Shown here: piece by piece, positions 1,016 through 31,840 of the stretch
Position numbering within the stretch: position 1 is the first letter of the stretch
How the letters are laid out: each line of letters begins with the position of its first letter
IMG/VR virus record: IMGVR_UViG_3300031772_000089
Location: 1-40,831 of that record
DNA length: 40,831 nt
Strand: one strand, 5' to 3'
Source of the DNA: a virus
Notes under the pieces: model-generated
Told to the model about the DNA's origin: nothing
Database searches by the model: none
What the model saw: only the letters and a program-made list of their open reading frames with translations
Program-made: the position numbers and the translations under genes

Positions 1016-1744
1016 TTAAATCATCTCAGGTAGTCCTCTATAGTTTTTTCTCCTGTTATATTCCATGTAATAAATTCCATTGTATTTATACTTTTTCTTT
1101 ACCTTCTTCTTTTTCTTTTTAGGCTTGAGTTGGTTCCTTTTAAAAACATCAGATGGTTTTTCCTGTCTCCTCATGCAACGAAAAATCCGGGTTAAAATAT
1201 TGTCCAGCGCCTTATAAGTCAGATTGTTTTTTTTACAAATTTCTGCCATACTTAATCCGTTATAGCGATCTAATATTAACTGCCAGTATTTTTCTAAGGT
1301 GTCTTTTCGTAACGCCCTATACTGTTCATAGTCTAAACTCCAATTTTTGAAGAATAATTTTTTCATATTGTCTAGCATTTCTTTTTCGTCATCAGGTGAA
1401 AAATCATAAACAGTAGGTAAAGTTATTCGCTGGTAGTGCTTATAGTCGTCCTTTTGTTCTTCACCGTTTGCGAATACTGTTCTTATGTCTCCTGCAAGGA
1501 TCCAATTATGGCAAGGGTAATAAAAAGAGTTTATGTGGCTAATAAGTTTTCTTCTAATAACAATCCAAGCAAAACTAGTGAATTTAGTTTTTTTATTAGG
1601 TTTAAAACACCTCATGGCTTCGCAGTAGGCAATTCTACCGGTTTGAAGCAAGTCCTGGTAGTAGTCTTTTTTATAATTTAGCCTGCTTAAAACCGCACCA
1701 GTAAGTTGATCGGCTTCCTCTTGGTTGTAAGTTAATTTAGCCAT
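1016..1744 (-). CDS. phage sigma-70 family RNA polymerase sigma factor, 242 aa
   Basis: Residues about 25-75 form sigma region 2: DLLQTGRIAYCEAMRCF, then FKPNKKTKFTSFAWIVIRRKL, which mirrors the F-P-x-G-x-x-F-x-T-x-A-x-x-x-I-R pattern of regions 2.2-2.4. Residues about 160-195 (NGLSMAEICKKNNLTYKALD...) form a region 4 helix-turn-helix for the -35 box. The C-terminal 40 residues are a lysine-rich tail (KPKKKKKKVKKKYKY) likely to bind nucleic acid. It is the first gene of the leftward operon and diverges from the early rightward operon, a logical place for a switch regulator. ATG at 1744 has no Shine-Dalgarno and lies 7 bases from a TATAAT, so the mRNA may be leaderless. Confidence 0.85.
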   Translation of the reverse strand: MAKLTYNQEEADQLTGAVLSRLNYKKDYYQDLLQTGRIAYCEAMRCFKPNKKTKFTSFAWIVIRRKLISHINSFYYPCHNWILAGDIRTVFANGEEQKDDYKHYQRITLPTVYDFSPDDEKEMLDNMKKLFFKNWSLDYEQYRALRKDTLEKYWQLILDRYNGLSMAEICKKNNLTYKALDNILTRIFRCMRRQEKPSDVFKRNQLKPKKKKKKVKKKYKYNGIYYMEYNRRKNYRGLPEMI

Positions 1745-2683: not shown

Positions 2684-2712
2684 TTGTCTAAAGTTTTATT
2701 ATTATGTATAAT
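2684..2712 (+). promoter_or_regulatory. strong promoter ahead of leader RNA
   Basis: TTGTCT (2684-2689), 17-base spacer, perfect TATAAT (2707-2712). The expected start, about 2719, coincides with the first base of the 5' stem. The 14 bases TGTATAATGGTTGT recur exactly on the minus strand at 30436-30449. Confidence 0.75.
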
Positions 2713-2717
2713 GGTTG

Positions 2718-2811
2718 TGAAGATCATGCAGGACAAAAAACAACTTGAACCAGTAGCAGGAGCATCGTTAGCACACCTACCGCATGATCTTCAACTCCTG
2801 TCTACTGGTTC
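2718..2811 (+). promoter_or_regulatory. leader RNA with two interlocked long stems (pseudoknot or switch)
   Basis: TGAAGATCATGC (2718-2729) is perfectly complementary to GCATGATCTTCA (2782-2793). GAACCAGTAGCAGGAG (2747-2762) pairs with CTCCTGTCTACTGGTTC (2795-2811) with one bulged T. The order is A-B-A'-B', so the two stems cannot nest: they must form either a pseudoknot with loops of about 17, 19 and 1 bases, or two mutually exclusive hairpins. The element begins at the predicted transcription start and ends 8 bases before the AAGGAG that serves the next gene. That layout suggests control of translation or RNA stability. No known riboswitch class is recognised. Confidence 0.65.
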
Positions 2812-2831
2812 TTCTTATAAGGAGAATGGTT

Positions 2832-3386
2832 ATGTCTAATAGTTATTATGAAGCAATTGTTTCGGACGTAAAAGGTTGTAAGCTAAATAAAAAAGTGCAA
2901 AAATTATTTAAAGGCAAAACACTAAGCGAAGACGGAAAAACATTAAAGGTAGTTGGATGTTATGAGTATTCAGGTCCCTTTAGTCTTTTAGTTTTTGACG
3001 GAATAGAGCAATATAAAGAATTAGCAAAAATTAAAGACGGACTACTTTGGAGTTTTAAAGACGAAGGAGAACTAACAAAAGTAGAAATCTCTATTAATAA
3101 GAAGTGGCATACAGTTGCTTTATTTAATGAGAACCTACAATTTCTAGACATTATTTATTATGATCTAAAACATAGTTTAGAAAGAAAAGAAACAGTTGAT
3201 CTAATGGCACTACTTGAAAACATAAGAGGAATTATTGCCGACAGAAAACATGAAGACACCTATGGGTTAACAGAAATTGATCTGTTGAATATAAAGAAAG
3301 CGGATCTACTAAACCAAGTAGAAAGTATAAAACAAGAAATAAAAGCAAAGAAACATAAAGATGCCGTTGAACCAGAATTATTCTAA
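2832..3386 (+). CDS. hypothetical early protein, 184 aa
   Basis: I choose ATG 2832 because AAGGAG lies 7 bases upstream; an in-frame ATG at 2784 would sit inside the leader stem and has no ribosome site. The first 120 residues look like a mixed alpha/beta fold (LKVVGCYEYSGPFSLLVFDG, then WHTVALF and LDIIYYDL). The last 50 are a charged helix (DLLNIKKADLLNQVESIKQE) likely to be coiled coil. No known domain is recognised. Its translation is probably governed by the interlocked leader immediately upstream. It precedes the methyltransferase gene by 8 bases and should be co-transcribed. Confidence 0.8.
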   Translation: MSNSYYEAIVSDVKGCKLNKKVQKLFKGKTLSEDGKTLKVVGCYEYSGPFSLLVFDGIEQYKELAKIKDGLLWSFKDEGELTKVEISINKKWHTVALFNENLQFLDIIYYDLKHSLERKETVDLMALLENIRGIIADRKHEDTYGLTEIDLLNIKKADLLNQVESIKQEIKAKKHKDAVEPELF

Positions 3387-3394
3387 GGAGCGTT

Positions 3395-4381
3395 ATGGGC
3401 GAACAAAATTCACTAGTTATATTTACTAAGGCTTCTCAAATGTTAGCGGAGGCAGTTACAGTACAAAAGGCTAAAGAGCTAAAGGACCTTGCATTAACCG
3501 CTGCTGACTGGGCAAAAAGGAAGGGCATGGGTCAACAAGCTATTGCTTATGCTCAGTCTTATGCTTTACAGGCAGAACGCAGAATGGGCGAAATGCTTAA
3601 GACAACAGAAAGAAATAAGGGCGCAAAAGGTATAGGTAGGAGTGCGGTCATGTCCAGTGACCGCACTCCTACCCTTAAAGACATAGGTATTACAAAGAAC
3701 GAATCGGCAAGGGCGCAAAAGGTAGCAGATATTAACGAAGATATATTTTCTGAAATTATTAGCGGAGAAAAACCAATAACAAAAGCACTAGGAGAACTAA
3801 AACTAGCAGAACGCAGAACCGACATTAAACGACAAAAATCCGACATAGCATCCGGTAAAACAAAACTACCAGAAGGTAAATACGAAATTATTGTAATAGA
3901 TCCTCCTTGGCGTTATAGCGAAAAAGAAGATGCTGGTTACGACTCTAATAGTTTTCGTGGCACAACACCTTACCCTACCATGTCTATAGACGAAATTAAG
4001 AAGCTTAAACTACCTGCCTCTAACGACTGTATAGTATGGCTATGGACTACTCAGAAGCATTTAAAGTATGCATTCGGTATATTAGAGTCTTGGGGTTTTG
4101 AGGATAAGGCTATACTAACGTGGTGTAAAAATAAGATGGGTATAGGTAAGTGGCTTAGGTCTAAATCTGAGTTTTGCATTATGGCAGTTAAAGGTAAACC
4201 TAAAATTAACCTTACAAACCAGACTACCGTTCTTAATGCAGACGCAAGAGAACATAGTCGTAAGCCAGATGAGTTTTATAGCATGGTAGACGAACTTTGT
4301 ATAGGCAGAAAGTTAGACTATTTTAGCAGAGAAAGTAGAAAGGGTTGGGACAGTCATGGCGTTGAAGCTAGTAAATTCTAA
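3395..4381 (+). CDS. MT-A70 family DNA N6-adenine methyltransferase with N-terminal ParB/HTH-like region, 328 aa
   Basis: The C-terminal half (about 160-320) carries the MT-A70 signature DPPWRY (about 171-176), then WLWTTQKHL, ILTWCKNKMGIGKWLRS and EHSRKPDEFYSMVDEL. These are the catalytic DPPW and the substrate/SAM pocket of enzymes that methylate adenine at N6. The N-terminal half (AERRMGEML, then TPTLKDIGITKNESARAQK) is the helical DNA-binding fusion common in phage members. Likely roles are protection from host restriction or marking phage DNA for regulation. AAGGAG precedes the ATG. The gene contains a perfect 16-bp inverted repeat at 3635-3673. A nuclease-like gene follows directly. Confidence 0.9.
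   Translation: MGEQNSLVIFTKASQMLAEAVTVQKAKELKDLALTAADWAKRKGMGQQAIAYAQSYALQAERRMGEMLKTTERNKGAKGIGRSAVMSSDRTPTLKDIGITKNESARAQKVADINEDIFSEIISGEKPITKALGELKLAERRTDIKRQKSDIASGKTKLPEGKYEIIVIDPPWRYSEKEDAGYDSNSFRGTTPYPTMSIDEIKKLKLPASNDCIVWLWTTQKHLKYAFGILESWGFEDKAILTWCKNKMGIGKWLRSKSEFCIMAVKGKPKINLTNQTTVLNADAREHSRKPDEFYSMVDELCIGRKLDYFSRESRKGWDSHGVEASKF
3635..3673 (+). repeat. perfect 16-bp inverted repeat inside methyltransferase gene
   Basis: GGTAGGAGTGCGGTCA (3635-3650) and its exact complement (3658-3673) flank a 7-base loop. G/C-rich compared with its surroundings. It encodes the linker between the N-terminal region and the catalytic domain, and no T-run follows. Confidence 0.85.
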
Positions 4382-15007: not shown

Positions 15008-16357
15008 CTATAGTTTGCTAATAACCTCATCCATACTTGGCCTTAAGTAAGCTTGCATAGGCGTATTAATTGTTCCGAACTCAACATGACAATTAGATAT
15101 TATTAATCCATTAGCGTAATAAGAATGTATATCCTGTATTGACAAATCATACAGATTAGCATTATGCAAATTATGCTTTTGTTTTTTGTCTAAATAATTC
15201 CACTTATAAACACTAACAACGTCTGTTTTTTTAAAAACATTCATATTAATATAACTGTTTGTATTTGGATTACAAACCACATAAAAAACATTTGGATAAG
15301 GATTTGGATCGAATATATTTGTAAATCTCTTATCATAGAAGTGTATATGTGTAATTTTTAATAACGGATCTATTGTTAATAAATATTTGTCCCTATCAAT
15401 ATCTTTTTGTTGATCTTTATGCCAATAGGCTCCATCTGGTTCGTATATTTCATTTGTTTTAGGACAGTAAAAATCAACCCATTTATTCCCTATATTATAA
15501 TTAAATATATATTCAATTCCTCTAGAGTCCAACCAATCCTTTACCCATTGTTCGTATTTAGTAAACTTACTTTTTTTTCTAATATTATAATTAGGATGCG
15601 ACCTAGGATTATTTTTAAATCTTTTTTTGGCACTTTCGCTCATTTTTCTTTTTGATTCGGCGCTTCTTTTCATTCCAACATGAGGATTATTTCCTTTAAT
15701 ATTCCAATATTCTTGTCTACATTTATCCGAACAAAATTTTTGATTTAGATTAGTTAAATATCTTCTAAAAGAATTTTTACAATTTAAGCATATATTGATT
15801 GAACTTTTCCCAGTCCCCCTTCTCTTGTCCGTTTTAATAAGCGTCCACACCTTATCTGTTAATAATAAATCTTTTGACTCTATCCACTTATTACGTCCGT
15901 TCCTGTAAATTAGTATTTTGTGGTTATCGGTAAGAGTAATCTTATGTGTTTTATTTTTTCTATACTCAAATTCTATGTCTATTAAATTTGGGAAATCTTT
16001 TGCCTTATGTCTTATTTGTTTTAAAACCTTTTTAAAATCTCCTGTTTGAGTTAATACTTCGTCTCCTATTTTAACCATTCCAATTGTTTTTGTTCCATTT
16101 TTAGTTTTAATTCTGGTTTGTGCTCCAAATATACATGCATAAGTAGTCGTATCGGTTCCTACCAGCCTTTCATACTTAGTTTCTCCATCCTTCTTATGTA
16201 AACTATCCTTGAGCCTACCAGTATCCACCGGTACAATAGTTTTAGCATTTTCTAATACGTCATCTGCTACCTTGTCAATAAAGTCTTCACCCTCAGACAT
16301 AACATTATTAAGACCGGTCTCATTCCATTTAATTTTTATGTCGCCTATAATAGCCAT
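15008..16357 (-). CDS. HK97 gp10-like tail completion protein carrying an intein
   Basis: I place the start at ATG 16357 (TAATTATG coupling to the upstream stop). The extein is about 101 aa: residues 1-74 (GDIKIKWNETGLNN..., VPVDTGRLKDSLHKK) plus the final 27 (CHVEFGTINTPMQAYLRPSM). VDTGRL and the (Y-A-x-x)-VEFGT...A-x-LRP motif are the signature of HK97 gp10-type proteins that complete the neck. A 348-aa intein splits the conserved TYA|CHVEFGT motif. Without splicing the protein should be inactive. It lies between the head-closure paralogue and the tail terminator, the expected place. Confidence 0.85.
   Translation of the reverse strand: MAIIGDIKIKWNETGLNNVMSEGEDFIDKVADDVLENAKTIVPVDTGRLKDSLHKKDGETKYERLVGTDTTTYACIFGAQTRIKTKNGTKTIGMVKIGDEVLTQTGDFKKVLKQIRHKAKDFPNLIDIEFEYRKNKTHKITLTDNHKILIYRNGRNKWIESKDLLLTDKVWTLIKTDKRRGTGKSSINICLNCKNSFRRYLTNLNQKFCSDKCRQEYWNIKGNNPHVGMKRSAESKRKMSESAKKRFKNNPRSHPNYNIRKKSKFTKYEQWVKDWLDSRGIEYIFNYNIGNKWVDFYCPKTNEIYEPDGAYWHKDQQKDIDRDKYLLTIDPLLKITHIHFYDKRFTNIFDPNPYPNVFYVVCNPNTNSYINMNVFKKTDVVSVYKWNYLDKKQKHNLHNANLYDLSIQDIHSYYANGLIISNCHVEFGTINTPMQAYLRPSMDEVISKL
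15092..16135 (-). mobile_element. intein with NUMOD3 and Vsr-like homing endonuclease, 348 aa
   Basis: Begins CIFGAQTRIKTKNGTKTIG (block A, nucleophilic C1), block B is TLTDNHKILIYRNG with the catalytic H, and it ends YDLSIQDIHSYYANGLIISN before extein C+1 (blocks F and G with terminal N). Inside are a four-cysteine zinc-finger-like piece (CLNC...CSDKC), a NUMOD3-like DNA-binding element (HVGMKRSAESKRKMSESAKK) and a nuclease domain VDFYCP...EPDGAYWHKD, which matches the Vsr/EDxHD-type PD-(D/E)XK homing fold. All elements needed for splicing and homing appear intact. Confidence 0.85.
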
Positions 16358-16359
16358 AA

Positions 16360-18081
16360 TTACACCTGACCAACAGTACATGTCCCGGTTGCAGTACCCC
16401 CAGGATTATAATTCCCAATTACATCATCTGCCAAGCTATCTTTTTGAAACCACTCAGTTTGTGGATTACCCTGATAGTTGTTAGATATTGTCCAATAATA
16501 ATTGTCTTCGGAAGAATAATATCTATAGTGGACATAATAGGTAGATAACATTCTTTTATATACTGGGTGTCCAGCCCATTCGGCATATAAATTATATTCA
16601 CCCGTTACATCTGGACTTATTAAACCACGAACATAAATCTTATCTGCGCTGGAAGAAGAACTACTTGAACTACTTGAGCTACTTCTTATTTCAGTAGACG
16701 AACTTGAGCTATAACTAGAACTAGAGCTATGGCTTTCTTGTGGCGTGTCATAAACTGTTAGGCTTCCTTGGGTTCCAGTAGTAGGCGTATAGGTTCCATA
16801 AATATTAGTGCAGGTAGAACCTAAACCAATCTTAGACCAACTATAAGGATTCTTGTTGCCCTTAACAGAACTTATTCGCCATATTGTTCCCGGTTGCCAG
16901 TAAATATACCAGTCTACTCCATCCTTTAACATATGGTAGGAACAAGCACCATTAAATAATCCGTCATAATTATAGTCGCCTTCTGCATCCGGTAGGGCGT
17001 CACCACTTACATAAACCATGTCCATATAAGAGCTTGAAGAACTAGAAGAAGAACTTACGCTGCTATTAGAAATAGAGGACGTAGAGCTTGTACTTTCAGA
17101 AGACTTAGAAGAATTAGATTGTGTACTTGAGCTACTACTTTGAGTGCTGCTTGAATCGCTAGACTGGCTTATGTCCTCAGAACTGGTAGAACTACTGGAA
17201 GTGCTTTGAGAAGACTTAGAGCTATTACTTTGCGAACTGTATGAGCTATTAGAAACGCTAGATTCACTTGAGCTGCTATTAGAACTTCTAGACTGGCTAC
17301 TATGGCTACTACTTTGAGTGCTGCTAGAAGAACTAGATTGGCTTATATTCTCAGAACTGGTAGAAGAACTTGACGTGCTTTGAGAAGACCTAGAGCTATT
17401 ACTTTGAGAACTGTATGAGCTATTAGAAACGCTAGACTGACTTGAGCTGCTATTAGAACTCTTAGACTGTGTACTGGAACTACTGCTTTGAGTACTGCTA
17501 GAGGAACTAGATTCGCTATAATTTTCAGAGCTTGTAGAAGAAGAGCTTTCAGAACTCTTGCTACTCTTAGAGGCAGAACTTTCGCTAGAAGAACTGGTAC
17601 TGCTTGAAGAATTACTACTCTTAGAAGAACTACTTTGAGACGAAGAACTTTCCGTACTACTTGAATTAGAACTAGAGCTTGAGTTATGAGCATAGTAAGA
17701 ACTGCTAGAAGACTCTGAACTAGAACTACTTACATAAGGTATAATGTCTATAATCTGGTCTATCATCTTACAGTCAATTTGCATATGGCTACGGTAGTCT
17801 AAATCATTAATATTTATAATGTCGTATTTTTCACCATTATAGCAGTCAACCATTAAGTCGGATTCTTGTATGTCTAATTGATCTGGTATGTAAATTCTAA
17901 CAATAGGCACTACCATTTCCTTACCGTCAATGAAATCTTCTTGCCCTTCTAAATACATTATTCTGGCTTTAATATTAGGGAAGTGCAGGTAGTATTGCTC
18001 AAAGGCAGCACCGTAAATATCTTGCGAATTTACTACGCTATAAACATTGCACTGCGTAAATGTTAATCCAGCTACGCTCAC
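16360..18081 (-). CDS. head-closure protein paralogue fused to polyserine stalk and two lectin-like modules
   Basis: I prefer GTG 18081 (GTGA overlap with the glycosyltransferase stop; aligns with MSVTGL of the paralogue at 26673-27143) to a GTG three codons earlier. Residues 1-120 match that head-closure protein (VVNSQDIYGAAFEQYYLHF..., IDGKE...RIYI...SDLMVD...YDI). Then about 220 residues are almost only serine with scattered Q/K/T/E/Y, followed by a module with SGDALPDAEGDYNYDGLFNG, a second serine run, and a last module with SPDVTGEYNLYAEWAGHPVY. The modules are aromatic-rich and carbohydrate-binding-like. This places extended stalks at the head-tail neck. Confidence 0.75.
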   Translation of the reverse strand: MSVAGLTFTQCNVYSVVNSQDIYGAAFEQYYLHFPNIKARIMYLEGQEDFIDGKEMVVPIVRIYIPDQLDIQESDLMVDCYNGEKYDIININDLDYRSHMQIDCKMIDQIIDIIPYVSSSSSESSSSSYYAHNSSSSSNSSSTESSSSQSSSSKSSNSSSSTSSSSESSASKSSKSSESSSSTSSENYSESSSSSSTQSSSSSTQSKSSNSSSSQSSVSNSSYSSQSNSSRSSQSTSSSSTSSENISQSSSSSSTQSSSHSSQSRSSNSSSSESSVSNSSYSSQSNSSKSSQSTSSSSTSSEDISQSSDSSSTQSSSSSTQSNSSKSSESTSSTSSISNSSVSSSSSSSSSYMDMVYVSGDALPDAEGDYNYDGLFNGACSYHMLKDGVDWYIYWQPGTIWRISSVKGNKNPYSWSKIGLGSTCTNIYGTYTPTTGTQGSLTVYDTPQESHSSSSSYSSSSSTEIRSSSSSSSSSSSSADKIYVRGLISPDVTGEYNLYAEWAGHPVYKRMLSTYYVHYRYYSSEDNYYWTISNNYQGNPQTEWFQKDSLADDVIGNYNPGGTATGTCTVGQV

Positions 18082-18818
18082 TTTTGCCACCCTTGTTTAT
18101 TGGTTAGAAAATTAGTAACCGCCCTACAATTAAAATGCGTATAAACAATATTCTTTACCATAGGCTCTAAAAACATCTTAGGTGGTTGCATAGGGCTAAG
18201 AAAGAAGTCAGGCTCAAACATTTCCTTATAGTCTGCTTCATTAAAACCATTAGGCATAAGACTGTCCATATACTTAGCCATAGAAACTTCTTCGCTCCAC
18301 TTGTCAGTCATTGTTTCCCATACTTTAATAATCTCAGAAGCTATATTCTTTTCTCTAAAATATACAAAGCTAGCACATGGTACCTTTCTCCAATCTTTAG
18401 GTCGCCAAAATACTTTCATTTTATTGTACATACTTATGCTAGCCTGTATTTTAGACTTCTTATTCATTACTTCCCAAAAATCTAATGGTAACTCTTTTGT
18501 CCTAACGCAATCCCAATCTAAAAATATATATTCGTCAAAATCCTTAGCCGCCTGCTCAAATATTTCTAACTTATGCCTGAAATTTTCTTTAGTTAGATCC
18601 CATACTATAGGCTTCTTGTCTACTAATTTGCACTTAAATCCCATGTCAACTAGCTGCTTATAATTGTCTTCTCCAAATATATAAGACATGTCAGTAACGT
18701 CATACTTACAAGACTGAACTAATTTAATGTCATTAGCTATCTTAGTCCTACGTGCTTCCCATCGGTTATTAAATAAACCTAAGGTGCCCCATAATCCTCT
18801 TATAAATCCTCTATTCAT
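18078..18818 (-). CDS. GT-A-type glycosyltransferase, 246 aa
   Basis: Contains EYIFLDWDCVRT (D101, D103), a DxD metal/nucleotide-sugar site preceded by the helix NFRHKLEIFEQAAKDFDEYI, as in small inverting or retaining GT-A enzymes. A late PMVKNIVYTHFNC has the conserved C-terminal His. No signal peptide or membrane span, so it acts in the cytoplasm. It overlaps the gene on each side (ATGAATAG and GTGA), and both neighbours are serine-rich virion proteins. That context suggests it glycosylates those polyserine stalks during assembly. It could instead alter host surface sugars. Function from motif is fair; substrate is inference. Confidence 0.75.
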   Translation of the reverse strand: MNRGFIRGLWGTLGLFNNRWEARRTKIANDIKLVQSCKYDVTDMSYIFGEDNYKQLVDMGFKCKLVDKKPIVWDLTKENFRHKLEIFEQAAKDFDEYIFLDWDCVRTKELPLDFWEVMNKKSKIQASISMYNKMKVFWRPKDWRKVPCASFVYFREKNIASEIIKVWETMTDKWSEEVSMAKYMDSLMPNGFNEADYKEMFEPDFFLSPMQPPKMFLEPMVKNIVYTHFNCRAVTNFLTNKQGWQK

Positions 18819-21800
18819 AGAAACTCATCCATAATTTCGTTCCGTCGCAATTAACATAAGAATAGCCTTTTAACGCATAAGGATTAATTAAATCTAATGA
18901 GCCTACTAAATTACTGCAACAACCTGAACCGAATGGTCCTGTGTATACTTTAATATACTCTGGAGTGCCGTTAATATTCACCAATAAGTAACCGTAACCA
19001 GCCAAACCTACCGGCGTGCTAATAGAACCGTAGAAAATCTTATTAGAAGGCGTATAAGAACCTGAGCCGCCTTTAGTATAAAGTGGTATATAATAAACCT
19101 GGTTAGTAGAGCCGTTAATATTAACATTTAAGAAACCGTAAAGGGTGAATATGGCTGCTTGAGAACTGCTAGAACTAGAAGAACTTGAGTATTCACTAAT
19201 GCTTGACAAACTACTAAGCGAAGAACTACTGGTAGAAGACTCAGAACTAGCAGAACTCTTAGAACTTGAACTACTGGTAGAACTAGATGTGCTAGCAGAA
19301 CTTAAGGACTGAGAACTTAAAGAACTAGCTGAACTTAATGACTGAGTAGATTCAGAAGACTGACTAGATTTAGAGCTAGAACTACTGGTAGAACTGCTAG
19401 TAGAACTTGACGTAGAACTAGGAGTGCTAAGACTGCTTTCAGAACTAATGGAACTCTTAGAACTACTGCTTTCAGAACTTAAGGATTGGCTAGACTCACT
19501 ACTTTCAGAACTCTTTGAGCTAGAAGAACTTTCAGAACTTAATGAACTACTGCTAGAAGAACTTACGTCCGAAACAGAAGAAATAGAAGTAGAACTTTCG
19601 CTTGTAGAACTACTGGATGTGCTAGGACAGAAATCTAGAACATAACCAGCGCTACCATAACCTAGACCTTTATTCCATATTAAACCGTCGTTAGTAGGAT
19701 CCGGATATACGTCAGAATAATATAACCATAACGCAGGATTATTAGTAGGAGAATAAGCTACCGCCCATTTACCAGCGCTCTCAAAACAAAGATAATGACT
19801 GTTAGAAAATACCGGGTAGTTATTGAAATAATATCCAGTACGACAATAGCAACCATTAATATTTTTAGTTAGGCTTGAAGAACTGCTTGAGCTTTCTTCG
19901 CTTACAGAACTTTCAGAACTTAAACTACTCTCTGAACTTAAAGACTGAGAACTTTCAGAACTAGCAGAGCTTAAGGATTGCGAACTTAATGAGCTAGCAG
20001 AACTTAAGGATTGAGTACTTAATGAAGACTCACTAGATTCTGAACTTAAGCTACTGGACGAAGACTCAGAAGCAGAACTTAAACTACTAGCAGAACTCTG
20101 AGAACTTAATGAACTACTAGAGCTTTCACTTTCACTGCTAATAGAACTTAAAGAAGACGGTGAACTTGCAGAAGATTTACTAGAACTGCTTTCTGAACTA
20201 ATACTACTAGGACTACTAGCAGAGCTTAAAGAGGCAGAAGAAGCACTAGAAAGACTGCTAGAACTGGAATTAGAACTAGATTCGCTACTTAATGAGCTGC
20301 CTGAACTTAAACTACTTTCGCTGCTCTTGCTTGAACTACTTGAACTAGAAGATTCAATAGTAATAGACTTGCTAGATTCGCTAGAAAGACTTGACTTGCT
20401 AGAAGAACTTGTTGAACTACTTGAATTGCTAGAAGAAGTGCTTGAGCTTACAGAAGGTCCACCAAAGTCCTCAGGTATGGAGTCCCAATTAGTTAAACCG
20501 GAATCATCTGTAAAACACCCAGTTCCAGTAGGTCTAGGACTCCTTAGCCATAGCGTAGGAGCATAGCCAGTTAAGGATGTATTATGGTAGAATGTTCCTG
20601 CAAAGGTGGTTACAGCGGTGCAATTGTCAAACAGTCCAGTAGGTATTGCAGTTAAAGACGTATCGTAATAAAATGTATTTACAAAAGTAGTTACTAAAGG
20701 ATTATTATTAAATAGTCCATCGGGTATTGTTGGCAAGCTTGCGCAGGAAATAAAACAATAACTAAAGTCTGTTACCTTAATATTATAGTCGAATAAGCCA
20801 GGAGGTATGGTTACTAAATAAGTACAACTATGGAAGCAAGCAAAGAAGGTAGTAGCTTTTACGTTAAACTTAAATAAGTCTGCCGGTATGGACGTTATAT
20901 TAGTACAAGCCCTAAAGCAGTTACCAAAATCTAGTGCTTCAATATTGTTGTCGAATATATTAGCTGTTATTCCTGTTAGTCCTGTGCAACCATAGAAGGT
21001 ATTATTGAAAACTGTTACCTTGGTATTGTAGGCGAAGAGTCCTGCCGGTATAGATGTTAGACCTGCACAAACATAAAATGTATTTAAGAAAGTAGTTACA
21101 TTAGTGTTGTATCTGAATACATTGCTTGGTAAACCGGCAGTAGTTAAAGCACTGCACTGTTGGAAGCAATAACCAAAAGTAGTTACAGCGGTATTAAACT
21201 TGAATATGTCTACTGGAACAGACGTTAACGATGTGCAAATCTGGAATGTAGCAAAGAATGTAGTTATTCCAGTACAGGTGTCGAATAAGTTTTCTGGTAT
21301 AGATGTTATTTTTGTAGAACGGAAACAATAAGACATGTCGGTTACTAAGGATGTACACCCATTAAATAATCCGCTAGGTATGGATTCCAGTTTCGTATCA
21401 TCCATAAAGCAAGAATTAAATGTTGTTACAGCAGCATTAGTAGCAAATAAATCGCTAGGAATTGAAGTAAGATTGCTACATCCTCTAATAGCATTTGCAA
21501 ATGAATTAACTAGAGTGTTATACTTAAATAAATTATTAGGTAACGATGTTAAACCTGAGCAATTATAAAATACGTTGCCCATTGTAGTTACGGCAGTACA
21601 GGTATCGAACAGTCCGTCTGGTAACGATGTTAAAGACGTGCAACCATAGAAGGTATTAACAAAACTAGTTAATCCCGTAATACCATTAATAGGACTTAGA
21701 ATAGCTGTTAGTTTTGCCGGGTTAGTAGGGAATATTATTTTGGTAGCAGCGCCCTTTATGGTTAAGGTATAAACACCAGCAAGAGCATAAGTATGGGTGC

Positions 21801-22386
21801 CGGTAGCGCTTCCATTATAAGTATTAGATTGAGTATCGCCCCAAGAAACTATAAGGTTGGTAGCACTGGTATAACCTACTGCAAAGGTCTGATTAACGAC
21901 GGTAGTAGTTACTTGTAAGTTCCAACGGTTATCATAAGAGGAAGTAGACGAAGAAGAAGAATTAGAACTACTTGAAGAATTAGAGCTAGAACTACTAGTA
22001 GAACTACTAGAACTAGAACTACTTGAGCTAGAACTACTGTTGCTACTAGCGGAACTTTGAGAAGATTTAGACGAACTAGAATTACTAGAAGAACTATTAG
22101 AACTAGAACTTTCTTCGTCTGTAACTACTGGATTACCACTGGTTCCTACAGCTGGAACATAATTACCTTCCACCTTATAATCGGCTGGTAGATTTTTTGC
22201 CCATGAACTAGTTTCCAGATTACCTATAGGATTTGAAAAATACCAGCTAGGATATGTTGGATGACCGTCTGACCAAAGCCAATAACTACCCTTATTATAA
22301 GCAGGATAGCCATTATAAGTTCCCGATTCGTCATAATAACCGGTAACATCTGGACTTATAGAACCTGATACAATTTTCTGGCTCAT
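18811..22386 (-). CDS. giant serine-rich adhesin with PKD and BspA-type LRR domains, 1191 aa
   Basis: Domains in order: lectin-like module (SPDVTGYYDESGTYNGYPAY, 1-91); short polyserine; a PKD-like beta domain (VSWGD...GTHTYALAGVYTLTIKG, about 150-205); about 19 BspA/DUF285-type leucine-rich repeats of about 23 residues (consensus TTFxxxFxxCxxLTSIPxxLF, about 210-660); polyserine rich in LSS/ESS; a second module (NGCYCRTGYYFNNYPVFSNS); polyserine; a beta C-terminus with repeated (V/L)NINGT motifs. PKD and BspA repeats are binding scaffolds used by surface proteins. This is probably a virion adhesin. It is co-transcribed with the glycosyltransferase. Confidence 0.8.
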   Translation of the reverse strand: MSQKIVSGSISPDVTGYYDESGTYNGYPAYNKGSYWLWSDGHPTYPSWYFSNPIGNLETSSWAKNLPADYKVEGNYVPAVGTSGNPVVTDEESSSSNSSSSNSSSSKSSQSSASSNSSSSSSSSSSSSSTSSSSSNSSSSSNSSSSSTSSYDNRWNLQVTTTVVNQTFAVGYTSATNLIVSWGDTQSNTYNGSATGTHTYALAGVYTLTIKGAATKIIFPTNPAKLTAILSPINGITGLTSFVNTFYGCTSLTSLPDGLFDTCTAVTTMGNVFYNCSGLTSLPNNLFKYNTLVNSFANAIRGCSNLTSIPSDLFATNAAVTTFNSCFMDDTKLESIPSGLFNGCTSLVTDMSYCFRSTKITSIPENLFDTCTGITTFFATFQICTSLTSVPVDIFKFNTAVTTFGYCFQQCSALTTAGLPSNVFRYNTNVTTFLNTFYVCAGLTSIPAGLFAYNTKVTVFNNTFYGCTGLTGITANIFDNNIEALDFGNCFRACTNITSIPADLFKFNVKATTFFACFHSCTYLVTIPPGLFDYNIKVTDFSYCFISCASLPTIPDGLFNNNPLVTTFVNTFYYDTSLTAIPTGLFDNCTAVTTFAGTFYHNTSLTGYAPTLWLRSPRPTGTGCFTDDSGLTNWDSIPEDFGGPSVSSSTSSSNSSSSTSSSSKSSLSSESSKSITIESSSSSSSSKSSESSLSSGSSLSSESSSNSSSSSLSSASSASLSSASSPSSISSESSSSKSSASSPSSLSSISSESESSSSSLSSQSSASSLSSASESSSSSLSSESSESSLSTQSLSSASSLSSQSLSSASSESSQSLSSESSLSSESSVSEESSSSSSSLTKNINGCYCRTGYYFNNYPVFSNSHYLCFESAGKWAVAYSPTNNPALWLYYSDVYPDPTNDGLIWNKGLGYGSAGYVLDFCPSTSSSSTSESSTSISSVSDVSSSSSSSLSSESSSSSKSSESSESSQSLSSESSSSKSSISSESSLSTPSSTSSSTSSSTSSSSSKSSQSSESTQSLSSASSLSSQSLSSASTSSSTSSSSSKSSASSESSTSSSSLSSLSSISEYSSSSSSSSSQAAIFTLYGFLNVNINGSTNQVYYIPLYTKGGSGSYTPSNKIFYGSISTPVGLAGYGYLLVNINGTPEYIKVYTGPFGSGCCSNLVGSLDLINPYALKGYSYVNCDGTKLWMSFYE

Positions 22387-22389
22387 TTT

Positions 22390-24486
22390 TTAATACCCAA
22401 ATCCATAAAAATAATAGCATACCTTTAAATATTCGCTAGACTCAGAAGAACTACTTGTAGAACTACTGGAACTTGATTTTATTTCAGTAGAACTAGATTC
22501 GCTACTTTCAGAACTAATAGAAGAAATAGAAGACTCTGAACTACTAGATTCTGAACTAATACTTGACATAGAACTACTAGAACTGGAACTCTTAATTTCA
22601 GTAGAACTACTTGTCGAACTAATACTACTAGAAGACGATTCAGAATGGCTTTCGCTACTTAAAGAACTTAAAGAACTTGAACTGCTAGATCTTATTTCGG
22701 TAGAACTAGATTCGCTACTTTCAGAAGACTTACTACTTGAACTACTTGTAGAACTAGACTCACTGCTTTCGCTAGAACCACTACTTTCCGAAGATTCACT
22801 AGACGAACTACTTTCACTAGACGAACTAATTGTAGAACTAGATTCGCTACTTTCGCTAGATTCACTACTTTCAGAAGAAGCAGAACTTAAAGAACTACTA
22901 CTGGACGACTCAGAACTTTCGCTAGATAAAGTAGATTCTGAAGAAGCAGAACTTAAGGAACTACTACTTGAAGATTCAGAACTTTCAGAAGAACTACTAG
23001 ACTCAGAACTTTCGCTACTTAGACTGCTAGAAGTACTTGATTCAGAACTTAATGAACTTTCACTACTTAAACTGCTAGATGTACTTGATTCAGAACTTAA
23101 AGAAGACTTAGAAGAAGAACTACTGGTAGAATTTGAACTAGAACTACTTTCGCTTGATCCAGAAGAAGCAGAACTTAAACTACTAGACGTGCTACTTTCA
23201 CTACTTAATGAACTTTTACTTGAAGAAGAAGTAGATTCTGAGCTAATACTAGATTGAGAAGATTTAGAACTAGAAGACGTTGAATAAGAACTACTTTCTG
23301 AACTTATAGAACTAGCAGACGACTTAGAACTGGAAGAACTACTATTTGAACTTATAGAAGATTGAGAAGACTTAGAACTGGTAGAAGATTCCTGGTAAGA
23401 TTGCGAAGAACTACTGGGACAATCATCGTTAAAATATCCTGTGTCACCTGAACCATCTGCCCTATGCCATATATTACCTGCATTAGTAGGATCTATAAAA
23501 ACATTAGAATAGAATAACCATTGAATAGGATTATTAGTTAAGGTATCCGCCATTACCCATATGCCACTTAGTCCTCTAAATAATAATTTATAACCATTAG
23601 AATAAACAGGGTAGCCGTTAAAGTATTGTCCGTTCTTACAGTAGCAACCGTTAATAAGTGATTTTTGATAACTACTGCTTGAGCTAGAAGAAGAACTAGA
23701 CGAACTGCTATTTGAACTAGGTGAGCTTAAAGATGAAACAGAAGATTGAGAAGACTTAGAACTAGAAGAATTACTACTTCTAATTTGAGTAGACGAACTA
23801 GAACTAGAAGAACTAGATTGAGTAACACCACGTGGATTTATAACAAGTAACTGTGCTATCGGGATAAACGTCATACCACTAAACTCTATAGATCCGATTC
23901 CAGTGTCAGTTGTTTGCGATCTATTTCCGTAAGCCATTGCAATACTGATAGTATTATTACCATAATGATAATAGGCATCATAGGATTCTGTAAAAGTAGG
24001 AGGAGAAGTTGCAATAGCATAATCACTGCACGTAAGACTTGCAATTGTTATACCAAACAATAATATTTCAGAATTAGCTACAGTAGGAGTTACACCTCCG
24101 TTAGTAACAACACCACCTTCTGGGTTTCCGCTGAAAGGCATACCCCAATTAGAACCGCATATGGGGGTACCGGTATCGCAACCAGTAAAAGCAGAAATAG
24201 CACCTATATTCACTTTATTATCTGTCATCGTCCATGTAAAAGTAGAAGTAGCAACATCTATACTAGTAGCAAATTTATAATATAAAGCAGAAGTATTATT
24301 GGATTCCAAATTATCTTTTCTTATTTGAGTCCAACCACTAAGTGTAGGTCCAGTGTCTGCATCATAACTAGCAATATGGCAAATCATTAAATCGCCAACC
24401 GCTAGACCTGAAGGCTTAGGAATATTGCACTGGTAATTTCCAGATTCTCCGGAACTTATTCCTTTTGATCTATAAGCAATACTCAT
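22390..24486 (-). CDS. serine-rich adhesin with phage-type N-terminal domain, 698 aa
   Basis: Residues 1-215 form a compact beta domain seen in many phage and surface proteins (VGDLMICHIASYDADTGPTL, GWTQIRKDN, YYKFATSIDVATSTFTWTM, IGAISAFTGCDTGTPI). Polyserine follows, then one lectin-like module (NGCYCKNGQYFNGYPVYSNG), then about 320 residues of serine with E/K/T/L. It ends SEYLKVCYYFYGFGY, closely matching the end of the next gene. GGAAG precedes the ATG. No enzyme motif. Probably a surface-exposed virion protein with a long flexible stalk. Confidence 0.7.
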   Translation of the reverse strand: MSIAYRSKGISSGESGNYQCNIPKPSGLAVGDLMICHIASYDADTGPTLSGWTQIRKDNLESNNTSALYYKFATSIDVATSTFTWTMTDNKVNIGAISAFTGCDTGTPICGSNWGMPFSGNPEGGVVTNGGVTPTVANSEILLFGITIASLTCSDYAIATSPPTFTESYDAYYHYGNNTISIAMAYGNRSQTTDTGIGSIEFSGMTFIPIAQLLVINPRGVTQSSSSSSSSSTQIRSSNSSSSKSSQSSVSSLSSPSSNSSSSSSSSSSSSSYQKSLINGCYCKNGQYFNGYPVYSNGYKLLFRGLSGIWVMADTLTNNPIQWLFYSNVFIDPTNAGNIWHRADGSGDTGYFNDDCPSSSSQSYQESSTSSKSSQSSISSNSSSSSSKSSASSISSESSSYSTSSSSKSSQSSISSESTSSSSKSSLSSESSTSSSLSSASSGSSESSSSSNSTSSSSSKSSLSSESSTSSSLSSESSLSSESSTSSSLSSESSESSSSSESSESSSSSSLSSASSESTLSSESSESSSSSSLSSASSESSESSESSESSSTISSSSESSSSSESSESSGSSESSESSSTSSSSSKSSESSESSSTEIRSSSSSSLSSLSSESHSESSSSSISSTSSSTEIKSSSSSSSMSSISSESSSSESSISSISSESSESSSTEIKSSSSSSTSSSSESSEYLKVCYYFYGFGY

Positions 24487-24489
24487 ATT

Positions 24490-26016
24490 TTAACTTCCAA
24501 AATCATACGCATAATAACATGGCAATAAATATTCACTACTTAAACTGGTAGAACTACTAGAGGTACTTGAACTACTTGTAGAAGAACTTGTAGAACTGCT
24601 ATTAGAACTAATGGAACTAGCAGAAGATTTAGAACTACTGGTAGAACTACTAGAACTACTTTGGCTAGACTTAGAACTGGAACTACTGGTAGAAGAACTG
24701 GTAGAACTAGAAGTAGAACTAGTAGAACTACTGTTAGAGCTGGGTGTAGAACTGCTAGAAGACTCACTACTTTCGCTACTTAATGAGCTACTAGATTCGC
24801 TACTAAGGCTTGATTCACTTGACAACGAACTTGAACTGCTAGAACTTTTAATTGCGGTAGAACTGCTAGAAGAACTTTCGCTAGACTCAGAACTCTTAGA
24901 AGAACTTGAGATGCCTAATGAGCTTGTACTAGATTCGGAACTTAGAGAACTTTTACTTGAACTAGAGCTACTTTCACTATAGCCCATAGAAGAACTAGAA
25001 CTGGAAGATGAAGAAGAAGAGGTTGAACTAGAGGTGGAAGAACTATTAGAACTAGCACTACTTAAAGATGATTTAGAACTGCTAGATGTTGAACTACTGG
25101 TAGAAGAACTACTATTAGAACTAGGCGTACTAGCACTACTTAAAGAAGATTTAGAACTGGAAGAAGACGTAGAACTAGAAGTACTACTAGAGCTGGAAGA
25201 AGTTGAGCCGGCCGGCGGTGTATTATAAGAAATAATTACAATACCGGTTCCTCCATTTCCCGCCTTATTATCTGAGTTACCGTGCATTCCGCCGCCACCG
25301 CCACCGGTATTTGCTACGGCGTTTCCGCCAGTTAAACCTCCATTTCCTCCTCCTCCAGAGCCTCCGGTTCCATCTGTACCCGAATAAGATCCTCCGCCTC
25401 CGCCGCCCGCAAACCATCCAGCGGGACTTCCACCTACGCTAGAGAACCCTGAATATTGTAGACCTACGCCACCATTCCCTGCGTGTGTTAAGTTATTACC
25501 GTTTTGACCAACGGCACCGGCGCCTCCTCCACCTCCTTCGTTGTACGGAGAAGCCCAAGTATCAGCAACACCACCATCGTTCCCTTGACCGCTTATACCC
25601 GATCCCTTTGTACCTGTCTTTGCGGCCCCTCCTCCGCTTCCACCGTTTCCGCCGTTGTACGTCCCTTCGGGAATGTTATTAGTGCCACCCGAACCACCGC
25701 CAGTTGCCACGGATTTAGTAGCGATTGACGAATTGCCGCCGTTTGTAGATGGTCCTTGTGTGTTTTGCCCACCATTACCTCCGCCACCAACTATTACAGC
25801 ATAGGTACCAATAGAAAACACATTACTGGAAGCATATATTAAACCGCCGCCACCGCCACCAGCACCAGTATGCTGACCTCCGCCTCCGCCACCAGCAACA
25901 ATTAATATTTCACACGTAACTTCAACGTCAGTTACGAAATTTTCGCTTCCAACGTTAGAAAACTTATGAAAAGTTTTGCCTCCGCTAGTCGAAATTATAC
26001 CACCAGTAATAGACAT
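24490..26016 (-). CDS. glycine-rich and serine-rich adhesin, 508 aa
   Basis: Residues 30-265 are a glycine-rich sandwich (ILIVAGGGGGGQHTGAGGG, YAVIVGGGGNGGQ, GTGIVIISYNTPP), as in glycine-rich phage tail tips and adhesins such as the PG-II fold of T-even tip proteins. The remaining 240 residues are polyserine ending SEYLLPCYYAYDFGS, matching the neighbour. Long reading frames rich in leucine and glutamate on the opposite strand are only the complement of serine codons. Role: probably receptor or glycan binding, inferred from composition. Confidence 0.7.
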   Translation of the reverse strand: MSITGGIISTSGGKTFHKFSNVGSENFVTDVEVTCEILIVAGGGGGGQHTGAGGGGGGLIYASSNVFSIGTYAVIVGGGGNGGQNTQGPSTNGGNSSIATKSVATGGGSGGTNNIPEGTYNGGNGGSGGGAAKTGTKGSGISGQGNDGGVADTWASPYNEGGGGGAGAVGQNGNNLTHAGNGGVGLQYSGFSSVGGSPAGWFAGGGGGGSYSGTDGTGGSGGGGNGGLTGGNAVANTGGGGGGMHGNSDNKAGNGGTGIVIISYNTPPAGSTSSSSSSTSSSTSSSSSKSSLSSASTPSSNSSSSTSSSTSSSSKSSLSSASSNSSSTSSSTSSSSSSSSSSSMGYSESSSSSSKSSLSSESSTSSLGISSSSKSSESSESSSSSSTAIKSSSSSSSLSSESSLSSESSSSLSSESSESSSSSTPSSNSSSTSSTSSSTSSSTSSSSSKSSQSSSSSSTSSSKSSASSISSNSSSTSSSTSSSSTSSSSTSLSSEYLLPCYYAYDFGS

Positions 26017-26048
26017 ATTATTTGTCCACTAAAATATTTTTATTAAAT

Positions 26049-26660
26049 TTATTCTTCATTTATGTTTAACCAATTAATAGCGTTTATGGTTTTGGGCGTT
26101 GGGATGTTATGAGTTTTTTTAGTATTTTTATAATTTATGATTGAATTACCTTCTCTAACTTCATCATAAATATGAGCATTACCAAAAACCCTAGCATTAC
26201 CATAAATCTGAGCATTACCAGAAACCCTAGCGTTTCCATAAATACTAGCATTATCAGAAACCCTAGCGGTACCATAAACCAAAGCATTTTCATAAATATT
26301 AGTATCACCATAAACACTAGCATCGCCATAAACATTAGCATTACCAGAAACTCTAGTATTACAAAAAACCCAAGCGGTACCATAAACCCTAGCGTTTTCA
26401 TAAACCCAGGCATTATCATAAACCCTAACATTACCATAAATCCTAGCATCATCAAAAACCATAGCGTTACCATAAATCATAGAATTATCACCAACCCAAC
26501 AATCTCCTTTTTGACTTAGATTCTCTACTTTCTCTATCCATCCCCCAAAATCACCTTTCTTAACATCGGAGAATCTTTTGGTTGCAATAATCCTATAAAG
26601 AACATGCGAATTAATTATCTTACTTTTGTTTGTTAATTTATATTTCACAATCATGCTCAT
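26049..26660 (-). CDS. hexapeptide-repeat beta-helix protein, 203 aa
   Basis: N-terminal part reads YRIIATKRFSDVKKGDFGGWI, a conserved phage motif (R-I-x-A-x-x-x-F-x-V-x-x-G-D-x-GGWI). About 20 hexapeptide repeats follow (NARVYG, NASVYG, NARVSG), which fold as a left-handed beta-helix. The DNA shows an 18-base quasi-repeat (CCCTAGCATTACCATAAA-like). Such helices are robust, stack into fibres and sometimes bind ligands. The gene sits between a head-closure gene and the serine-rich adhesins, so it may be a decoration or fibre component. AAGGAG precedes the ATG. Confidence 0.75.
   Translation of the reverse strand: MSMIVKYKLTNKSKIINSHVLYRIIATKRFSDVKKGDFGGWIEKVENLSQKGDCWVGDNSMIYGNAMVFDDARIYGNVRVYDNAWVYENARVYGTAWVFCNTRVSGNANVYGDASVYGDTNIYENALVYGTARVSDNASIYGNARVSGNAQIYGNARVFGNAHIYDEVREGNSIINYKNTKKTHNIPTPKTINAINWLNINEE
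26135..26480 (-). repeat. 18-base tandem quasi-repeats of the beta-helix gene
   Basis: About 19 imperfect copies of an 18-base unit resembling CATTACCATAAACCCTAG (plus-strand reading). Each copy encodes one hexapeptide such as NARVYG. Explained by the protein fold; not CRISPR, since there are no unique spacers. Confidence 0.8.
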
Positions 26661-26672
26661 ACTTCTCCTTTT

Positions 26673-27143
26673 TTATACCCACACGCTACTGTTCCACTTA
26701 CTTATATTATTAGGACAAAGATTATCGCTACTTGAACTACTGGTACTTTCATAACCACTAGAACTACTGCTAGAACTAGAGCTTAAATAAGTTATAACAT
26801 TAATAATCGAATCTATTCTTTTAACATCGATCTGTAAATGATGCTTACGATCTAACCTATTAACGTATAAAATGTCATACTTTCTATTAGGGATTCTATT
26901 AACGTCTACAATAAGATCCGATGTTAGAATATTATATTGAGCACCTATGTAGATTCTATAAACAGACACGTTTTGAATTTTACCGTCTATAATTTTCTCA
27001 TAAGTAATTACTTTTTGGCGGAATCTAGCTGGTATACTTTTGTACTTAAGAAAATATTGTTCTGTGTTAGCGGCGTAAACGTCAGTACTTGTTACTACGC
27101 CGTAAACATTTACTAGAGTTGTGGCTAAACCTGTGACGCTCAT
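26673..27143 (-). CDS. head-closure (head-tail joining) protein, 156 aa
   Basis: Directly follows the adaptor gene, as head-closure proteins do. The core (VYGVVTSTDVYAANTEQYF..., IDGKIQNVSVYRIYI, SDLIVDV..KYDILYVNRLD, HLQIDVKRIDSIINVITYL) is shared with the first 120 residues of the gene at 16360. After it comes a short SSSSSSSSSGYESTSSSSS run and an ending CPNNISKWNSSVWV, so even this copy carries a small serine stalk. It should form the ring between adaptor and tail. Confidence 0.7.
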   Translation of the reverse strand: MSVTGLATTLVNVYGVVTSTDVYAANTEQYFLKYKSIPARFRQKVITYEKIIDGKIQNVSVYRIYIGAQYNILTSDLIVDVNRIPNRKYDILYVNRLDRKHHLQIDVKRIDSIINVITYLSSSSSSSSSGYESTSSSSSDNLCPNNISKWNSSVWV

Positions 27144-27167
27144 TATTCACTATCCCCAGCTATTATA

Positions 27168-28148
27168 CTAGATCACTTTCTTTTTGTAAAAGTCAAGAAG
27201 ATCGTGGTAGCGGTTTAAAAGCTGGGAAATCTGAGCGTTGTCTGCAAGTTTATAATTGTAATCGCCTAATCCTTCTGAGGCGTAAATTCCTTTGTAAATT
27301 CCACTGCCATCTAAATTGTATAAAGACATTAGATCCCTAATTATGCTGGCTACTACCCACTTAAGCTCTTGAGGAACTAAGGCAGTTGTATACCCGCTGT
27401 CATACACGATTAGAAGATCTGTTTCGTTGTACCAGTCTATAACACTTCCGGAATCTATGCTAGAATAACCATTATAATTAGAATATTGGTTAGACGACAA
27501 GTTATGGGTTACAGAAGCATAGTTAGGATTTATTAACAGGCGATCTGAGTTTTCATTAATTCTATAAACGTCACCTACAGAATTAGAAGTAGTTAGATCG
27601 AAGTAATTAAGACCGGCGTATAAGGTTTTACCGCTGGTAGGTCTTAAGGTTAGAGTGTTTATATTAGCTGCGGTTATAGTAGAAGGTATACTAGACTGGT
27701 AAGCAAACGTAACACCCGCTAAAGCTCCCTCTACTGCCGTTTTTAGTGTCCCTAGAGTAAGGTGGGTGCTAAATAAGAAGTCAGTAGAAACTAAAGTACT
27801 GGTATTAGTAGCTGTAAATTTAGCTTCTACTTGAATATTATTAGACGTTACCTGAGAAACATTGAAGTTGTAAATATTATTAGTGTCGGTTATTAGAATT
27901 GCGTCATAAGGAACACCTAAAAGTAATACGTTGTTAATGGGCCAGTTGTCGGTTAAAAGCTCATACTCCATTGTACACCACTGGCCCCATGTCTGCTTAA
28001 GAAATCTGCGTCTGCAATAATTTTCTATGGCACGACAGATTGTAGGTATATTAGCCGAAAGAAAGGTGTCGTAAGTAACAACACTAATATTGTCTAGTGC
28101 CTTTATTTCGGCAAGTGTCGCAATTTCGTTACTTCCAGGGTATGCCAT
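27168..28148 (-). CDS. head-tail adaptor (connector) protein, 326 aa
   Basis: AGGAGGT precedes the ATG. Two regions show the gp6/gp15-like connector pattern: an N-terminal helix with TFLSANIPTICRAIENYCRRRF and a C-terminal VPQELKWVVASIIRDLMSLYN. Between them lies a long beta insertion (about 80-240) with DTNNIYNFNVSQV and TLRPTSGKTLYAGLNYF, making it longer than typical 100-200 aa adaptors. Located just downstream of the capsid genes and before the head-closure gene, it should sit under the portal ring. Confidence 0.7.
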   Translation of the reverse strand: MAYPGSNEIATLAEIKALDNISVVTYDTFLSANIPTICRAIENYCRRRFLKQTWGQWCTMEYELLTDNWPINNVLLLGVPYDAILITDTNNIYNFNVSQVTSNNIQVEAKFTATNTSTLVSTDFLFSTHLTLGTLKTAVEGALAGVTFAYQSSIPSTITAANINTLTLRPTSGKTLYAGLNYFDLTTSNSVGDVYRINENSDRLLINPNYASVTHNLSSNQYSNYNGYSSIDSGSVIDWYNETDLLIVYDSGYTTALVPQELKWVVASIIRDLMSLYNLDGSGIYKGIYASEGLGDYNYKLADNAQISQLLNRYHDLLDFYKKKVI

Positions 28149-28176
28149 AACTACCTCCTAAAGGCTGAAGTAATTA

Positions 28177-29748: not shown

Positions 29749-29793
29749 TTTTGTATTCCTTAATGTTAGCCTTTTTATGTAGGCGTTATACAA

Positions 29794-30339
29794 TTAAATT
29801 GTTACTAACTCTGACTCTAACTTGCGCTTATTTACATGAAATTTTAAAACCGAATCTGTAATTTTTTGTATCTGTTCTTTAGTATGATACCTACCAGTTT
29901 GTGATTTAGCATTTTTTTCTCTTGCTTCTTTAGAAAATACTTTACCCTCATTAAAGTGTAATTCTCTATGGCAATTAGCACATAAAATAATACACTTATC
30001 TAATTCTGGTTTTGCTGTTTCCAAATTCCTAAACTTATTTATAATTGTTTCTTTTTTACTAGGATCTATATGGTGAAAATCTAAAGAACCAATACATTTA
30101 TCATATCCACACATGCTACATTTACCGCCTCTATAATCTAGCATATCTTTTTTCAGTTTACGCAATTTTTCTGTTTTTCTAATATTGCGTTCTTCTCTAT
30201 GCTTATCGTTTTGTACTTTATTATTAATATAATTACAAGATTTACATTCCCATGATTTATAGATTTTACCATTTCTTTCGAAATACCTTCTAAACTCAGA
30301 TTCGTCTTTCAAAGAACCACATGTTTTACATTTACGCAT
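29794..30339 (-). CDS. free-standing HNH homing endonuclease, 181 aa
   Basis: Begins with a zinc-ribbon (CKTCGSLKDESEFRRYF...CKSC), then the HNH core: CSMCGYD, SLDFHHIDPSKKETIINKF, and CIILCANCHRELHF with the final His and zinc-binding cysteines. Such genes insert between conserved phage genes; here it separates two capsid genes. It has its own TATAAT and a long hairpin upstream (30375-30449) and AGGAGGTTAC at the ATG. Active-site residues look intact. A tail NAKSQTGRYHTKEQIQK resembles a NUMOD-like DNA-binding end. Confidence 0.85.
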   Translation of the reverse strand: MRKCKTCGSLKDESEFRRYFERNGKIYKSWECKSCNYINNKVQNDKHREERNIRKTEKLRKLKKDMLDYRGGKCSMCGYDKCIGSLDFHHIDPSKKETIINKFRNLETAKPELDKCIILCANCHRELHFNEGKVFSKEAREKNAKSQTGRYHTKEQIQKITDSVLKFHVNKRKLESELVTI

Positions 30340-30360
30340 TGTAACCTCCTACAGTTACCC

Positions 30361-30432
30361 TAGAATAAAAATAGGGCTTGGGTCGGGGATCTAGGATAAT
30401 CCTTTTCAGTCTATAGAACCTAGACCCAAGCC
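30361..30432 (-). terminator. strong hairpin after capsid gene, also leader of HNH gene
   Basis: On the minus strand GGCTTGGGTC (30432-30423) pairs perfectly with GACCCAAGCC (30384-30375), extended by TAGG/CCTA inside, and is followed by TATTTTTATT. It looks like an intrinsic terminator for the capsid transcript. It also starts just after the TATAAT at 30442-30447, so it would be the 5' end of an HNH mRNA. Confidence 0.7.
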
Positions 30433-30441
30433 ATTACAACC

Positions 30442-30447
30442 ATTATA
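30442..30447 (-). promoter_or_regulatory. -10 box upstream of HNH gene
   Basis: Perfect TATAAT on the minus strand within a 14-base sequence (TGTATAATGGTTGT) identical to the promoter at 2705-2718. The -35 region is weak (TTACCC, 18 bases). Confidence 0.5.
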
Positions 30448-30457
30448 CAAACAATTA

Positions 30458-31741: not shown

Positions 31742-31840
31742 GTTTTTCCTTGTTAGTGTCCTTTTTAGATTAGCTTTCCTGTTTAGGGATTGGCTTTCTG
31801 AATATACACTATAATAATTCTACTAATTCTAAAATTGTCC

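Follow-up and report, generated by a model that had tools for sequence, protein, structure and literature searches.

In this study, the leader at positions 2718-2811 of a 40.8-kb uncultured phage record (the window, that is, the whole stretch of 40,831 nucleotides analyzed) was found to contain two long stems whose arms follow one another in the order A-B-A'-B' in one RNA, the arrangement of an H-type pseudoknot, and it looks like one member of a family of phage leaders defined by position and topology, not by sequence. The stems, their placement between a promoter and a Shine-Dalgarno (SD) sequence, the family and the covariation in one pair of leaders are supported at the sequence level. From these we infer that the stems form simultaneously and stack, and analogy with known mRNA leaders suggests that the knot may protect the 5' end. 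Our leading interpretation, held tentatively, is that the window element is a 5'-terminal RNA knot with coexisting stems, most likely shielding the mRNA end and leaving the SD open. The leader and the genes behind it are arranged as follows.

2684-2712 (+): predicted sigma70-type promoter, TTGTCT (2684-2689), 17 nt, TATAAT (2707-2712)
2718-2729 (+): 5' arm of stem A, TGAAGATCATGC; its first base lies at the predicted transcription start
2730-2746 (+): loop 1, the A-rich 17-nt linker between A and B
2747-2762 (+): 5' arm of stem B, GAACCAGTAGCAGGAG
2763-2781 (+): loop 2, the 19-nt linker between B and A'
2782-2793 (+): 3' arm of stem A (A'), GCATGATCTTCA
2794 (+): 1-nt linker between A' and B'
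2795-2811 (+): 3' arm of stem B (B'), CTCCTGtCTACTGGTTC, with a bulged T at 2801
2819-2824 (+): SD AAGGAG, 7 nt past B', with ATG at 2832
2832-3386 (+): first gene behind the leader, encoding a 184-aa protein without relatives
3395-4381 (+): second gene behind the leader, encoding an MT-A70 methyltransferase of 328 aa

The interlocked pairs of the preliminary description, given there as 12 and 16 bp, were both located, with their arms in the order claimed. Stem A consists of 12 Watson-Crick pairs with no mismatch (2718-2729/2782-2793), and stem B reaches 16 only when a bulge is allowed, as 10 + 6 pairs around T2801 (2747-2762/2795-2811). The promoter matches the consensus at 10 of 12 positions, and at least 10 matches are reached at 0.15% of random positions. 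As the transcription start expected from the -10 element is 2719-2720, stem A starts within 1-2 nt of the transcript end, in line with the earlier claim that the stems begin at the predicted start; the pairing of the first base is predicted from the position of the -10 element alone. In whole-window dinucleotide shuffles, the perfect parts of the stems (12 + 10) were matched in 2 of 290 cases, and the full score of 27, which includes the 6-bp extension, in none of 1,803 (maximum 26). The arms of A and B did not recur elsewhere within the window beyond chance.

No relatives of the 184-aa protein were found in the viral contigs, phages, genomes and related records searched, and therefore no homologue of the window leader was available for covariation, none being found in the collections searched. 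The protein had no family match, and its AlphaFold model was useless (pLDDT 41). An exact DNA pattern built from stem B was absent from the viral contigs searched. The covariance models of Rfam 15 gave no match to the window leader, and a riboswitch, ribozyme or other catalogued RNA was rejected on this ground and because the leaders described below have no shared core.

Leaders of the same plan were found in the 2.2 Mb surveyed, most of it phage loci that carry genes for related MT-A70 methyltransferases. About a dozen leaders, unrelated in sequence except for one homologous pair, consist of a sigma70-type promoter, interlocked stems over ~66-121 nt, an SD and a start codon, and the window leader at 2718-2811 shows each of these parts in turn. 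The recurrence of this layout in unrelated sequences of several other phages strongly supports the earlier placement of the stems in an mRNA leader. The first paired base lies 3-9 nt past the -10 element, and the promoters match the consensus at 8-12 of 12 positions (7 in L126). Several leaders have three stems, in the order A-C-B-A'-C'-B'. The carriers are L002 (whole record L098), L016 (L096), L019 (L102), L062 (L103), L059, L126, L129 and, weakly, L144, in all of which the leader begins 3-8 nt past a -10-like hexamer; three leaders belong to one phage (G014, L096), two to another (G001, L098) and probably two to the window. The leaders of L016 recur in the independently assembled contig L136, which was rejected as a source of covariation (99.99% identical to L016). 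All leaders but one lead into an SD and a start codon, the exception being L098:2961-3056, which is followed by TTTTT and by a gene 144 nt downstream. MT-A70-type genes lie directly downstream of five leaders (L019, L059, L062, L126 and L096-12178, the last by its DPPW motif), an association biased by the design of the survey, which took methyltransferase genes as its starting points. HNH genes follow L096-10418 and L098-9777 (Pfam), a RepB-type primase gene follows L098-2961, and the gene behind L096-8885 encodes a replication protein akin to the DnaD-like helicase loaders of phages.

In 1.68 Mb of the survey set, with scoring rules tuned on part of the loci later counted, interlocked pairs scoring at least 24 numbered 10 vs 1.1 per shuffle, those that also had a -10 element at 2-9 nt numbered 8 vs 0.2, and pairs of at least 20 with both a -10 element and SD/ATG numbered 6 vs 0.15. 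No anchored leader was present in the 275 kb of six control phages, where shuffles gave 0.15. Because the -10 element had helped to select part of the leader list, a count starting from promoters is the cleaner test: at 578 strong promoters in the 2.2 Mb, interlocked pairs of at least 21 were found seven times vs 0.1 in shuffles, whereas nested pairs and serial pairs were both absent. The pair counted in L075, one of these seven, lacks a clear SD. A chance origin of the interlocking, in favour of which only the commonness of short inverted repeats in general can be cited, is negligible, being about 1 in 1,000 for the window alone by its shuffles and excluded far more strongly for the whole family by the promoter-anchored counts. 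Several further candidates were not counted. L009:8639-8743 scored as interlocked and reads as a terminator-like nested hairpin; L013:889-1017 has stems ahead of an SD, but their interlocking part is of low complexity; and the candidates in L038, L054, L057, L022, L041, L094 and L075 had poor promoter/SD context or lay in GC-rich coding sequence. In L013:889-1017, from a relative identified through its portal protein, a 12-bp stem encloses a 13-bp hairpin and extends as far as the SD of a small gene.

The region 30355-30432 is probably a second leader of the window phage. It lies downstream of a 13-base promoter core that has no exact copies in the window other than the two at 2706-2718 and 30436-30448.

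30436-30448 (-): promoter core GTATAATGGTTGT, identical to 2706-2718
30355-30432 (-): second, weaker interlocked leader, equalled in 5 of 300 local shuffles
30423-30432/30375-30384 (-): stem A of the second leader, 10 bp
30390-30399/30355-30364 (-): stem B of the second leader, 10 pairs including a G-U
29794-30339 (-): gene after the second leader, encoding a 181-aa protein that is HNH endonuclease-like by eye

This leader fits the family plan weakly, with its -10 element at 9 nt, and no Pfam match passed for the 181-aa protein. A phage-encoded sigma-70 region 2-like protein (1016-1744, minus strand) could serve the GTATAATGGTTGT promoters. Weaker interlocked stems of 8 and 10 pairs at 31763-31845 (minus strand), between a gene and a 427-aa major-capsid-like gene, form a possible third leader in poor promoter context.

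When the leaders were compared pairwise, local similarity equalled that of shuffles except in one pair, and no conserved unpaired nucleotides were found. This pair, L096-8885 and L098-2961, is the only one with clear similarity (local score 31, shuffle maximum 22) and aligns from the -10 element through C'. Between the two leaders, one of the eight pairs of stem A and four of the ten of stem C show compensatory changes, stem C also having one broken pair and one G-U; stem B has one additional base pair, inserted on both arms. Because MAFFT misaligned the 3' arms, the arms were set by hand and compared by script, and since they were hand-aligned in a single pair of sequences, the covariation is support rather than proof. 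Of the covariation in homologues that the preliminary description had named as a check, this pair gives the one instance, no homologue of the window leader having been found in the collections searched.

The preliminary description had left the choice between a large pseudoknot and two competing hairpins. In three two-stem leaders of unrelated sequence, the loops have nearly the same lengths, 17/19/1 nt in the window, 15/22/1 nt in L059 and 20/17/0 nt in L062, with different lengths in L096-12178, L126 and L098-9777. With A' and B' stacked, loop 1 would have to span 2.8-4.8 Å per nucleotide and loop 2 2.0-2.8 Å, which is feasible. The linkers of three-stem leaders are short (6, 4, 4, 3 and 3 in L098-2961; 6, 3, 3, 2 and 1 in L096-10418), and their helices of similar length could lie side by side. 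By crude energy sums, both stems of the window leader together reach -42 kcal/mol vs -27 kcal/mol for the best nested fold; the margin is just 2-4 kcal/mol for L096-8885, L096-12178, L098-9777 and the second window leader, and in L126 the nested fold wins. Energies, geometry, the three-stem versions and the covariation thus favour the pseudoknot for most members, short of proof, with L126 going against it.

Considering the above results, we have proposed a plausible model of how the leader might work. Transcription would start at the first bases of stem A, and no stem could pair until A' emerges ~65 nt later. Stems A/A' and B/B' would then both pair, giving an H-type pseudoknot whose stems are unusually long and coexist; in it, A' and B' stack end to end, loops 1 and 2 bridge the stems, and the knot stops 7 nt before the SD, which would remain free; in relatives with a stem C between A and B, the same process would give a triple knot of order A-C-B-A'-C'-B'. 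The knot would serve as a sequence-independent shield and spacer: its paired 5' end should stop decay that depends on the 5' end (RppH/RNase E, RNase J), endonucleases would find little single-stranded RNA, and single helices of mostly no more than ~16 bp would be poor RNase III targets. Among the functions suggested earlier, protection of the RNA end is preferred, given that the genes behind the leaders differ and that the leaders lack a common sequence, and a generic role fits the variety of these genes (methyltransferases, HNH, primase, replication), whereas control specific to the 184-aa and methyltransferase genes found no support. The shield alone does not explain the interlocking, because an end could be protected by a simple hairpin at +1 as well.

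That the leaders share no nucleotides argues against a ribozyme, a small-molecule riboswitch or sequence-specific binding, whereas recognition by a shape-specific protein is compatible with it. The fold might be the site of one phage or host RNA-binding protein, which would join several of a phage's transcription units into a post-transcriptional regulon controlled at the adjacent SD, as with gp32. That a phage can have two or three leaders (window, G001, G014) and that the structure lies directly against the SD are consistent with such a site, and gp32 offers a precedent (PMC3014915); the absence of conserved unpaired nucleotides among the leaders and of a candidate protein, the 184-aa protein occurring in none of the related records, makes it unlikely in our judgement.

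Equally doubtful is a switch between A and B as mutually exclusive hairpins, in which A alone would free B' to cover the SD and B alone would open it. The calculated openness of the SD in the window is nearly the same in the knot (0.50) and with B alone (0.48) and falls to 0.19 when only A is formed, so that a weak switch would be possible. The nested fold of L126 points the same way, as does the second window leader, where CCTAGA is able to pair with TCTAGG on either side. However, stem A is never populated in the window under the nested model (P 0.000), so that co-transcriptional trapping would be required; a switch has no need for two arms of 12-16 bp, and both the short linkers of three-stem leaders and the loop lengths suit a pseudoknot.

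Control of transcription, with the stems as an attenuator, antiterminator or antitermination signal acting on RNA polymerase, is quite improbable: a U run follows the last stem of L098-2961 and the T-rich stretch TTCTTCTT lies around the B' end in the window, but a U tract is missing from most leaders, which run directly into the SD, and the leaders have no common sequence of the kind found in put or nut sites. DNA-level operators with inverted half-sites for regulators would account for the location at promoters, and are very improbable given that the arms differ entirely among the leaders of one phage and do not recur in the window, that the elements are bounded by the start site and the SD, and that compensatory changes occur.

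Among known structures, the nearest to the knotted leaders are the pseudoknot in the T4 gene 32 leader and the stem-loops that stabilise mRNAs at their 5' ends. The stems of the gene 32 pseudoknot are 6-7 bp long. In T4, T2 and RB69, gene 32 has an H-type pseudoknot with coaxial stems in the leader upstream of the SD, the same plan as proposed here; gp32 acts on it in a demonstrated autoregulation, it comes to lie close to the 5' end through RNase E processing at -71, and the T4 gene 32 mRNA is the most stable T4 mRNA (PMC3014915). In contrast to those shorter stems of related sequence at one gene, the leaders described here have stems of 10-16 bp, precede several genes, share no common sequence and need no processing. 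Downstream of the window leader are the 184-aa protein and the MT-A70 enzyme rather than the single-stranded DNA-binding protein of a T4 gene 32-type operator. The stem-loops of ompA, papA and aprE, which are known to stabilise their mRNAs (PMC7509114, PMC3997798), have a paired 5' end, as is predicted for our leaders, and like them leave the SD free a short distance downstream and need no sequence conservation, but they are simple hairpins, unlike the two or three interlocked stems here, and nested pairs were essentially absent from our promoter-based count. The arm order of the three-stem leaders is exactly the ABCABC order termed pseudotrefoil or triple knot in papers that treat the topological class (PMC3390330, PMC4885603). 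Structured leaders also precede the phage homing endonuclease genes I-TevI, segB, mobE and seg43(25), the last having its strong hairpin immediately ahead of an RBS that stays free (PMC2988022); these resemble our leaders in placing RNA structure ahead of phage HNH/homing endonuclease genes and differ in being hairpins that mostly hide the RBS, whereas here the stems interlock and the SD lies outside the structure. In the open-access literature searched, we found no description of a leader family of the present kind and none of ABCABC topology.

It is conceivable, as a still more tentative generalization, that these leaders form a class selected for knot topology alone (H-type, pseudotrefoil), without conserved sequence, which diverse phages use at several of their operons, either as a generic cap-like shield of the 5' end or as a regulon read by shape. 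If so, the three-stem leaders would belong to the few natural RNAs that combine three full-length helices in ABCABC order, and RNA discovery based on sequence or nested structure (Rfam, pseudoknot-free covariance models) would miss such a topology-only family. If the knots form, they would provide natural long-stem pseudoknots and triple knots, a compact and portable part for mRNA protection, and a direct test of whether interlocked 5' ends stop bacterial decay enzymes.

Some other features of the window were also observed. Within the methyltransferase coding sequence, a perfect 16-bp hairpin with a 7-nt loop (3635-3673) maps to the linker between the N-terminal and MT-A70 domains, which is variable in relatives. 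The region 2140-2600 contains ~430 nt without a convincing gene at 46% G+C vs ~33% around it; its minus strand folds better than most shuffles (z -2.5), with a 17+11-bp hairpin, and is possibly a non-coding RNA, for which neither an Rfam match nor similar phage DNA was found. The tail-region protein at 15008-16381 (minus strand) has an intein/Hint-like insertion and a DUF559 nuclease-like part, below the cut-off, and several large virion-region proteins at 16360-29793 (minus strand) contain long serine-rich low-complexity tracts. The large terminase at 34513-36711 (minus strand) carries an intein, with Pfam Intein_splicing above the cut-off.
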